Shown one piece after another: positions 27,523 to 48,478 of a DNA stretch of 64,000 nucleotides. A model generated the notes under the pieces. That model was not told where the DNA came from, made no database searches, and was given only the letters and a program-made list of their open reading frames with translations. The stretch lies in contig CP133595.1 of NCBI GenBank assembly GCA_031200235.1, forward strand, positions 186,001 through 250,000, read 5' to 3'. The stretch comes from Cuniculiplasma divulgatum. Its GTDB lineage: Archaea; Thermoplasmatota; Thermoplasmata; Thermoplasmatales; Thermoplasmataceae. The first letter of the stretch is position 1; every line of letters begins with the position of its first letter. The position numbers were made by a program, and so were the translations under genes.

Positions 27523-27659
27523 TTATAGGGCCGTCCAGATGCCTCAAAAGGCAATTAGGATTTTAATTTTGCTTAATGAAAACTCAATTTTCAGGCTCAC
27601 TCCACAACTTGAATACTGATGACCGAAAGATTGGAATAGCAAACTGACGTTAATCAAAA

Positions 27660-29108: not shown

Positions 29109-29410
29109 AGTGTCCTACAAGGAAGTACTTTTTTGCTAGTCTCACTTGCCAATTTCTGTTGAAATTTATATTCTCAGGGTCCGCTTACGACTGATCTCCA
29201 GAAACGTACATACGCATTAATTTATGAAATGGCAACATAGGAACCAGAACATACTTCCTTTTCTTGAGTCTCCAAAACAAAGAGCCAACATATTGTAATA
29301 TATTTTCTCCGATGTAGCAAACTCCGTATAAACAGAGCTCGAGTACTGCAATAATGGAGAAACAACATCAAGGCTAAAATTTAAGTTACGATCTGGTTTT
29401 CTTCGCTTTA
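29109..29410. other. AT-rich intergenic region
   Basis: About 300 bases with no convincing gene. AAATTTAAGTT at 29377-29387 is a TATA-like box about 25-30 nt before ATG 29411 of the membrane protein. Confidence 0.4.
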
Positions 29411-30925
29411 ATGGATCAATGGACATCGCTTAAACAAAGTATGCAGCATCTCCATTTGAACTTAAAAGATTCACTTTCAAATATCATAGGGGTCTATGGT
29501 ACAAGAACTGCGGGGATACAGTCCCTCATAGTGCAATGTTTAACAGTTGCTGTCTATATTTACCTGACTCTGCTTTATGTTCATAGCAGTCTTTTTTTCT
29601 ATCCATTTCTAGCACTGTCCACAATACAGACAATAATTACTATCTATTTTTCAATTTTCCTCTTTGGTTACCTGCACTATTTGAAATCGGGGATACTTTA
29701 CCGGGAAGACAGTCCATACCTCCTCTCGTTTGGAATAATAAAAATAATATTCGGAAGCCCTTTTTCAGGGATAATAGATGTGATGCTATGGACAGAAGTT
29801 TCTTCACTATGGTATCGAAAGGACGGCATAACGCGAAATAGTGATATCATAATCTCACTAAGGCAATCCTCTAGTATCATTCTTTTGTGTGTCTTGTTTT
29901 TCTTTGCATTGGAGTTTTTTGGGTTGATAATGCCATACTATTATGCATACCTCCTCCTGGCACTTGGTCTGGCGCTCGAAAGTCTTGTGATTTCTATGAA
30001 ATCACACGATTCTGTTAGTGTCTCGTATGATTCATTTATGCTATTTATGCTGGAAGATTTCTATATTTTTGCTATTTTATTGAATCATTTCATTGGCGAC
30101 TCTTTGATAGCGGCTATGAGAATAGAACTTTTTTTGATAGTCTTAGCATTTTCAATATTTGATTTCCTTTACTTTCAGTCATATTTTAACTCAACAACAA
30201 ACGGAAAAGAAGTTTATAATTTCAGAGCTTTTTTAGGAGCCATTGTCATTTTATTTTCAGCCATTTACATTGTCTTACCAACTATTGCTATAGCGTTCGT
30301 ATCTTTTTTGATCTCAGGGAAACCTGAGTTCCCTCAGGTCACGTGGTCCCTTTCGTCAACAACTACCTTTCTTTCGCTTCTGATCGCTGACGCCTCGGGA
30401 TATCTTGTTATAGGATACCTGCTCAGTTATATCCTAATTGACCAATTTAAAGGCGTGGACAATTTAAGCTATGAATTTAATTTGTCAACCTTTGTGGAGA
30501 AGAAAGTGGATGAAACATTTGAAGCTATATCGGAAAACCTTGATCGGGAATTAGAGAAATCCAAGGAAATGGAGGAGAGAATCAAGGAATTGGAAGAGAG
30601 AATCAAGGAATTGGAGAAGGAAAGACAACAATTAATAGCATCAATACGAACGGAATATGAAAGAGGCTTCTTTGACGCTAGTAAAAAAATGAATGATGAA
30701 TTCAATAGGAATAAAAAAATCATTGAAAAGAACGCCAAGGATGAAATACTTAACCTCCTCTTCGAATTTGACTATGCACCACGGGATGGCCAAAGTAAAA
30801 AAACTTTCTTTACAAGAATTAGAAATGGGCTGACCAAGATATACCATCCAGACCATAACATAGGCGCTGACACCAATAGGATTATGCAAATTATTAATGA
30901 ACACTATGAAAAACTCACAAAGTAG
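29411..30925 (+). CDS. Polytopic membrane protein with coiled coil and C-terminal J-like domain
   Basis: 504 aa, leaderless. Residues about 35-350 contain some eight to nine hydrophobic segments; about 365-425 form a charged coiled coil with a duplicated heptad ERIKELE encoded by two 21-bp direct repeats (30575-30595 and 30596-30616); the end (about 445-504) resembles the helix II-loop-helix III core of a DnaJ domain, FTRIRNGLTKIYHPDHN with HPD at 479-481, followed by IMQIINEHYEKL. HPD is the motif that stimulates Hsp70 ATPase. J domain at the C-terminus of a membrane protein is unusual. Base composition is markedly more AT-rich than neighbours, and it lies in an island ending at tRNA-Ser. 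Could be a membrane recruiter of DnaK; not tested. Confidence 0.7.
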   Translation: MDQWTSLKQSMQHLHLNLKDSLSNIIGVYGTRTAGIQSLIVQCLTVAVYIYLTLLYVHSSLFFYPFLALSTIQTIITIYFSIFLFGYLHYLKSGILYREDSPYLLSFGIIKIIFGSPFSGIIDVMLWTEVSSLWYRKDGITRNSDIIISLRQSSSIILLCVLFFFALEFFGLIMPYYYAYLLLALGLALESLVISMKSHDSVSVSYDSFMLFMLEDFYIFAILLNHFIGDSLIAAMRIELFLIVLAFSIFDFLYFQSYFNSTTNGKEVYNFRAFLGAIVILFSAIYIVLPTIAIAFVSFLISGKPEFPQVTWSLSSTTTFLSLLIADASGYLVIGYLLSYILIDQFKGVDNLSYEFNLSTFVEKKVDETFEAISENLDRELEKSKEMEERIKELEERIKELEKERQQLIASIRTEYERGFFDASKKMNDEFNRNKKIIEKNAKDEILNLLFEFDYAPRDGQSKKTFFTRIRNGLTKIYHPDHNIGADTNRIMQIINEHYEKLTK

Positions 30926-31002
30926 TTATTTCTAAAATATTTCACACATCTCTGGACAGAATACGAAATTTATTATGATTCATGCTGTTCCTTGCCTTAT
31001 AA

Positions 31003-31080
31003 ATGGCAGCAAAGAGGGTATACACACCTAAGGAGAAACTGAAAATGGCACTTGGGGGCATGTGCGGGAACGGAAATGTA
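31003..31080 (+). pseudogene. Transposase OrfA N-terminal remnant next to tRNA-Ser
   Basis: From ATG 31003 the frame encodes AAKRVYTPKEKLKMALGGM and NGNVS, then runs into tRNA sequence. The opening strongly recalls the first helix-turn-helix of IS3/IS481-type OrfA proteins (R-x-Y-T-P-E-x-K-L-K). Only about 26 codons survive and the similarity stops at the tRNA boundary (31083), so an element end or an integration junction is likely here. Confidence 0.5.
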
Positions 31081-31082
31081 AG

Positions 31083-31164
31083 CGCGGGGAGAGGGATTCG
31101 AACCCTCGCTCTCATTCGAGAAACAGCTTAGCAGGCTGCCGCCGTACCGCTGGGCCATCCCCGC
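31083..31164 (-). tRNA. tRNA-Ser (anticodon GCU)
   Basis: Full cloverleaf on the minus strand: acceptor GCGGGGA/TCCCCGC, D stem GCC/GGC, anticodon stem GCAGC/GCTGT around CTGCTAA (anticodon GCT), a long variable arm TCTC/GAGA typical of class II tRNA, T arm GAGGG-TTCGAAT-CCCTC, discriminator G. CCA is not encoded; no intron. Decodes AGC/AGU. The 53-aa protein gene ends at the base just before the mature 5' end. Islands often integrate at the 3' end of such genes, here facing the accessory genes at 28.5-31.0 kb. Confidence 0.96.
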
Positions 31165-47675: not shown

Positions 47676-47823
47676 GACCTCTTCAGTGAAGATGTGGAAT
47701 AAGATTCTCCGTCATTGTCCTATTATATCCAATAATTGCCTACAGTTTTTCTGAAACTTAAAACCACAGAAATTAGTGAAATGGTCACAAGGTATATATA
47801 TGGGAAATAACATACAGTATTGT

Positions 47824-48048
47824 ATGACAAAACTTGTAAGTATACGTGTGGATGAACAGACGTTGGCAGAAGCTAAGAGGTTGAAGATAAATTACTCGGA
47901 GGTAATGAGGGAGTCATTGAAGAATGAGATTGAGAGAAGAAACGATAAAGAATTCTTAGAAAGTATTTCTAAGATACACAGAATGCTAAAGAACGTTGAT
48001 CGTAACCAAATTCTTGCGGATTTAAGAGAAGACCGGGATCAAAGGTGA
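47824..48048 (+). CDS. vapB: VapB-like antitoxin
   Basis: 74 aa, leaderless ATG 47824 about 27 nt after GTATATATATG. N-terminal ribbon-helix-helix (TKLVSIRVDEQTLAEAKRLKINYSEVMRESLKNEIERR) followed by a charged toxin-binding tail. Overlap/spacing with vapC is 4 nt, typical VapBC order. Probably dimeric DNA-binding autorepressor. Confidence 0.85.
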   Translation: MTKLVSIRVDEQTLAEAKRLKINYSEVMRESLKNEIERRNDKEFLESISKIHRMLKNVDRNQILADLREDRDQR

Positions 48049-48052
48049 TAGG

Positions 48053-48478
48053 GTGGTTTTGAGTTATGTTTTGGATTCAAGTTCACTCTTCACTCTATTC
48101 TTCTTGGATTCGGAAGAAAAGGTGCATAAAATTCTAAAAGAGTCCTCTGTGCTGGACCTAACTGGTTACGAGATTGGTAGCATACTAACAAAAGGAAATG
48201 ATGGTCATATAAGGGGGCTCGAAAGAGAGATCATACTAGATTTGACAAAAGAAATCCAGAAAGTAATTGCCAATATCAGAGTGATTAGACTTAACGCTTT
48301 AGATATAACGGAAATAATGAAACTTTCACTATCAACCGGACTCACTTTTTATGATTCATCGTATGTTTTCTACAGCAAATTTCATCAGATGGCTTTGTTG
48401 ACCGACGACAAGGAAATGTATCGGGAAGCCAAGAAGCTGGGTTTGGAGGTCAAGAAAGTACAAGAGGTTTTCAATTGA
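48053..48478 (+). CDS. vapC: VapC PIN-domain ribonuclease toxin
   Basis: 141 aa. PIN-domain acidic residues are in place: D in YVLDSSSLF near the N-terminus, E in LTGYEIGSIL, D in GLTFYDSSYVFYS, and D in ALLTDDKEM. These coordinate the Mg2+ used for RNA cleavage. GTG start 5 nt after vapB. Presumably intact toxin of a VapBC pair; target RNA not inferable. Confidence 0.87.
   Translation: MVLSYVLDSSSLFTLFFLDSEEKVHKILKESSVLDLTGYEIGSILTKGNDGHIRGLEREIILDLTKEIQKVIANIRVIRLNALDITEIMKLSLSTGLTFYDSSYVFYSKFHQMALLTDDKEMYREAKKLGLEVKKVQEVFN

Follow-up and report, generated by a model that had tools for sequence, protein, structure and literature searches.

The window analysed in this work is a stretch of 64,000 nucleotides from Cuniculiplasma divulgatum. 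The Ta1207 family, which is present in a genome of the same family, is suggestive of a Thermoplasmatales-type archaeon. An intact and uninterrupted open reading frame (ORF) is located on the forward strand of the window at positions 29411 to 30925. It starts with ATG at 29411, its stop codon ends at 30925, and its product of 504 amino acids is read as a membrane protein that ends in a J domain. The parts of the protein are given below with their coordinates on the same strand. A possible archaeal TATA-like box, AAATTTAAG, can be read on the forward strand at 29376 to 29386, about 27 bp before the ATG, and a similar box also precedes the start of a homologue in genome G020. If AAATTTAAG acts as such a box, which is possible from its sequence, it would give a leaderless mRNA.

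The gene is AT-rich, with a GC content of 35–37% compared with about 48% around it. No match to the gene was found in four congeners, where two of the assemblies are clearly incomplete. The synteny between the congeners and the window ends near 27565 on the left and restarts at 31056–31080 on the right. A tRNA-Ser(GCT) gene that was identified by ARAGORN is located on the reverse strand at 31082–31164, with its 3' end facing the J gene, and is the probable integration site. The same tRNA-Ser(GCT) is overlapped by a full integrase gene in congener G003 (L053 8557–9606) and by a C-terminal integrase remnant in congener G001 (L052 2682–2969), and it is an integration hotspot of the genus. Between the J gene and the tRNA gene lie an IS3-type left end and the final codons of that integrase frame. 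The truncated IS3-type left end (30935–31067, forward strand) is multi-copy in the congeners. It reaches the first codons of orfA, breaks off after about 20 codons, and abuts the integrase remnant at the tRNA-Ser. This remnant (31056–31081) is left over from the C-terminal end of an integrase reading frame that overlaps the tRNA-Ser; the same sequence ends the integrase ORF in L052, and the synteny with G001 starts here. The integrase or its remnant on the tRNA-Ser, together with the synteny break, marks an integration slot where the J gene is cargo or what remains of cargo. No second attachment site, in the form of a repeated tRNA 3' end, was found in the window. The gene is accessory, with a patchy occurrence and a location in the tRNA-Ser integration slot.

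Two other features of the window were observed. The segment 28570–28907, just upstream of the J gene, has a copy with 80% identity elsewhere in the same genome (G000:C1:795047-795384) and further copies in congeners G003 and G004. It probably represents a mobile-element or multi-copy-gene fragment. Two small adjacent ORFs at 47776–48478 resemble, as read from the sequence, an antitoxin and PIN-domain toxin pair.

The hydrophobic segments of the window protein and of its two homologues, from genomes G020 and G311, were identified by Kyte-Doolittle scan. The window protein and the G311 homologue each have nine segments and the G020 homologue has eight. Eight of these segments match in position across all three proteins, which indicates about eight transmembrane (TM) helices. 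TM helices 1 and 2 consist of residues 39–57 and 66–84 (29525–29662), and TM helices 3 to 8 are located within residues 156–338 (29876–30424). Residues 102–127 (GSPxSGI...W; 29714–29791) form a cytosolic or re-entrant segment that ranks among the best-conserved parts of the membrane domain in the alignment of the three homologues. The extra hydrophobic segment of the window protein (residues 104–122) contains the conserved GSPxSGI motif and may be re-entrant. The N and C termini are expected on one side of the membrane because the number of TM helices is even, and the loop charge suggests that both are cytosolic, where DnaK is. No convincing family match for the membrane domain was found in Pfam, NCBIfam, PHROGs or PADLOC, which returned only coiled-coil noise. 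The whole protein modelled without an alignment reached a pLDDT of 48.5, which is useless for the membrane domain, and Foldseek found no match for either the full-protein model or the model of the tail.

The membrane domain is followed by a coiled coil (residues about 358–440; 30482–30730), which is matched only by coiled-coil families. This region is a long predicted helix with a pLDDT of about 70–86 in its middle. A reading made earlier from the sequence alone (the sequence-only reading) had described a polytopic protein with a coiled coil, and the eight to nine hydrophobic segments and this long helix agree with it. The same reading had proposed that the heptad repeat was duplicated at the DNA level. 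Three tandem 21-bp heptad units are indeed present at 30554–30616, where units 2 and 3 differ at one base (20/21 identical).

The protein ends with residues 442–504 (30734–30922), which are assigned to a J domain from the J-profile scores, the hhalign comparison and the model. Helix II consists of residues of about 460–477 and helix III of residues of about 486–503. The HPD motif (residues 479–481; 30845–30853) sits in the loop between these two predicted helices. The isolated tail scored 29.4 bits against a profile of 11 J domains, where the best of 2000 shuffles scored 12.8 bits. A broader J profile, which consists mainly of DnaJ domains from phage contigs and the same 11 J domains, gave 22.5 bits for the isolated tail, 17.3 bits for the whole ORF, and no more than 6.1 bits for any non-J sequence, where a histone H2B fragment scored highest. 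With this profile the tails of the window protein and of the G020 homologue outscored every non-J ORF tested, including all others in the window. The profile-profile comparison of the tail with the 11 J domains using hhalign gave a probability of 97.2 and an E value of 2.9e-11. The tail is under threshold in Pfam, where it scored 13.2 bits against the DnaJ family (PF00226) with a cut-off of 27.8. The tail was modelled with low confidence (pLDDT 69, pTM 0.49) and Foldseek matched no J domain with it; this weak model has a predicted helix where helix I of a J domain would be. By sequence, the J-like domain that had been noticed at the C terminus is supported by 22–29 bits with the J profiles, by none of 2000 shuffles scoring as high, and by a profile-profile probability of 97%. 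Judged by these profiles, the protein ends in a J domain with helix II, the HPD loop and helix III. The Pfam scan of the protein found no zinc-finger or DnaJ C-terminal domain, which places it outside classes A and B.

Helix II of the tail has five K/R residues and no D/E over 18 residues. The positions Y25, K26, and R27 of E. coli DnaJ, which we take to be the helix-II positions that contact DnaK in the DnaJ-DnaK structure, correspond to R, N, and G in the tail. The contact with DnaK may therefore be altered.

The homologue search covered 117 genomes of the order, 400 genomes of the class, and 390 genomes of the phylum. Two further family members were identified (in G020 and G311), and the family is present in 3 of the 117 genomes of the order. 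The G020 homologue comes from another genus, has 497 amino acids, and is 30% identical to the window protein over a 474-column alignment. The tail is the best-conserved part, with 57% identity compared with 30% overall; the HPD and the DTNRIMQIIN of helix III are strictly conserved between the two proteins. The G311 homologue has 491 amino acids and matches in the membrane domain with an E value of 4e-35. Its tail has NEE at the position of HPD and gives no J signal. This tail may have decayed from a J domain or may be of another kind, and in a shuffle test of such decay 122 of 3000 shuffles did as well. The membrane domain can therefore exist without a J domain, since none is detectable in this homologue. 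The sequence-only reading had named the loss of HPD from homologues as an observation that would speak against it, and had called for homologues with the same architecture. The HPD is kept in the nearest homologue, from G020, and is absent from the third, from G311. The similarity to the window protein extends over the full length of the G020 homologue and is limited to the membrane part in the G311 homologue.

A J-tail-like fragment, DKQSETNRIMQLINDHYESI, was observed alone, with the rest of the gene absent, on the reverse strand of a contig of genome G023 (L011, about 1480–1590). It is perhaps what remains of a lost copy of the gene. Scans of viral contigs with the full-length protein, and with its membrane domain by itself, gave no relative, and neither did phage and plasmid records searched by tblastn. 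Weak matches were obtained in G046, G026, G048, G027, G351, G333, G471, and G058. Some of them were inspected (L010, L017, L035, and L155), where L010 looks SMC-like, and the others were set aside as probable coiled-coil or hydrophobic noise.

The position of the J domain had been considered unusual, and this claim is not supported. J proteins of class C have only the J domain in common, which can be located anywhere in the chain, and they may have TM regions (PMC8215388). The E. coli DjlA is held by a membrane anchor and has its cytosolic J domain at the C terminus; it acts on the Rcs system, for which DnaK and a working J domain are required (PMC11709261). The window protein is similar to DjlA in that the membrane anchor comes first, the J domain comes last, and the host DnaK is the expected partner (PMC11709261). 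The two differ in the parts themselves, with a single TM helix and a TerB-like domain in DjlA, and about eight TM helices and a coiled coil in the window protein. No Pfam match to TerB was found in the window protein, and the single N-terminal TM helix of the DjlA family is also absent.

Several other Thermoplasmata proteins (L021, L022, L025, L029–L032, and L034) also carry their J domain at the C terminus or close to it, and two of them (L021 and L022) have hydrophobic, TM-like segments as in the window protein. These proteins of the same archaeal class differ from the window protein in their unrelated N-terminal parts and more canonical J domains, where the three that were tested scored 66–68 bits with the broader J profile. 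C-terminal J domains look common in this class. One of the proteins of the class that end in a J domain is a short TM protein, and others form a family with a length of about 236 amino acids.

The closest J tails outside the family are those of small coiled-coil proteins of Lachnospiraceae and of phage mini-J proteins. The Lachnospiraceae proteins (L012–L015) resemble the window protein in having a coiled coil that is followed by a C-terminal J domain of the LTKIYHPDN..GDT...IN..YE.L type. They are unlike it in being bacterial, in their length of about 160–185 amino acids, and in having no membrane domain. The phage contigs L071–L074 encode a small protein that has a mini-J domain (HPDKGGDT...IN..YE.L) at its N terminus, and in L071 and L074 its gene is located downstream of a large terminase-looking gene. 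The canonical DnaJ of the same genome (G000:C1:270790-270981) shares a J domain with HPD; it differs in that its J domain is N-terminal in a frame of 376 amino acids that is far over the Pfam cut-off, and in that no membrane domain is expected.

The neighbourhoods of the three copies were compared. A transposase-like gene and a D5-like primase are located in the region of the G020 copy, and within about 20 kb of this copy there are also a kinase similar to those of defence systems and a gene pair of E2 (Prok-E2_E) and ThiF/E1 (L037 8118–9890). The G311 copy is followed by genes for SLFN_AlbA_2 and an archaeal phage integrase; an HNH nuclease is encoded upstream, and the contig also has a tRNA-Lys. 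The genes directly next to the copies are different in each of the three genomes, which leaves no operon to suggest a function, and no conserved operon partner was found across the three loci. PADLOC gave no defence-family match, and its weak hits are nearly all to the coiled coil.

Other explanations of the protein have to be weighed against these results. The gene may encode a defence protein or a conflict protein of the element, where the membrane domain would be the effector, for example by disturbing the membrane, the coiled coil would set the oligomeric state, and the DnaK bound to the J domain would restrain the effector until infection or heat stress draws DnaK away. The patchy occurrence in a tRNA-linked mobile slot and the defence-like neighbours of the G020 and G311 copies agree with this explanation. 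DnaJ is also reported to mediate phage sensing by bNACHT25 (PMC12169576), which makes a defence role a reasonable hypothesis. However, the window copy has no defence-like neighbour, the PADLOC hits are weak, and guilt by association with three loci that share no operon partner is a weak argument. A defence role is possible on circumstantial grounds of association, and we consider this detailed version of it unlikely. A broader version describes a new membrane-protein family on integrative elements of Thermoplasmata-type archaea, which would hijack or monitor the host DnaK through the C-terminal J domain and thereby defend the host of the element or control the membrane during infection; it appears rather doubtful.

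The remaining explanations concern the tail. It could be a J-derived scaffold that no longer activates Hsp70, in a membrane protein that is channel-like, transporter-like or structural and uses the tail for assembly only. The changed helix-II contact positions, the G311 homologue that lost or never had a J domain, and the sub-threshold Pfam score speak for such a scaffold. Against it, neither HPD nor the DTNRIMQIIN of helix III has changed between genera despite an overall divergence of about 70%, and an early decay of HPD would be expected in an inactive domain, so we regard the scaffold as quite improbable. The HPD could also be a chance motif in an ordinary coiled-coil tail. Histone H2B has an HPD that is followed by a helix and turns up in the PDB profile search, thus HPD alone is not diagnostic, and the fold search gave no J match. 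However, the tail reaches 22–29 bits with the J profiles compared with 6–8 bits for the H2B fragment, the shuffles are nowhere near, and the tail closely resembles J tails with the LTKIYHPD...GDT...IN..YE.L pattern from Lachnospiraceae and phages. A chance motif was already disfavoured and is very improbable.

The best reading of these results is a new, rare, and unnamed family of class C membrane J proteins on mobile islands. We give a probability of roughly 0.6 to the window protein being a polytopic class C J-domain protein in which about eight membrane helices and a coiled coil precede the J tail, and this tail draws DnaK to a client at the membrane. The genome encodes a single DnaK and a single canonical DnaJ, about 54 kb away, and the protein, as far as its sequence can tell, probably calls this Hsp70 of the cell to the membrane. 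In the simplest mechanism, the membrane domain would bind a client or a site, the coiled coil would oligomerise the protein or space the J domain from the membrane, and the J domain would bring DnaK to that site and trigger its ATPase there. Integrative elements would carry the family along as cargo.

The place where Hsp70 acts is decided by membrane-bound J proteins, whose archaeal members have, to our knowledge, been little studied. Membrane J proteins with a terminal J domain are already known. What is unusual here is not the position of the J domain but that a J tail is joined to a many-helix membrane domain of no known family, and that the gene lies on mobile DNA. A polytopic J protein on mobile DNA would show that Hsp70 recruitment is passed between archaea as cargo, and the window protein would be a small, testable handle on the action of DnaK at the archaeal membrane.
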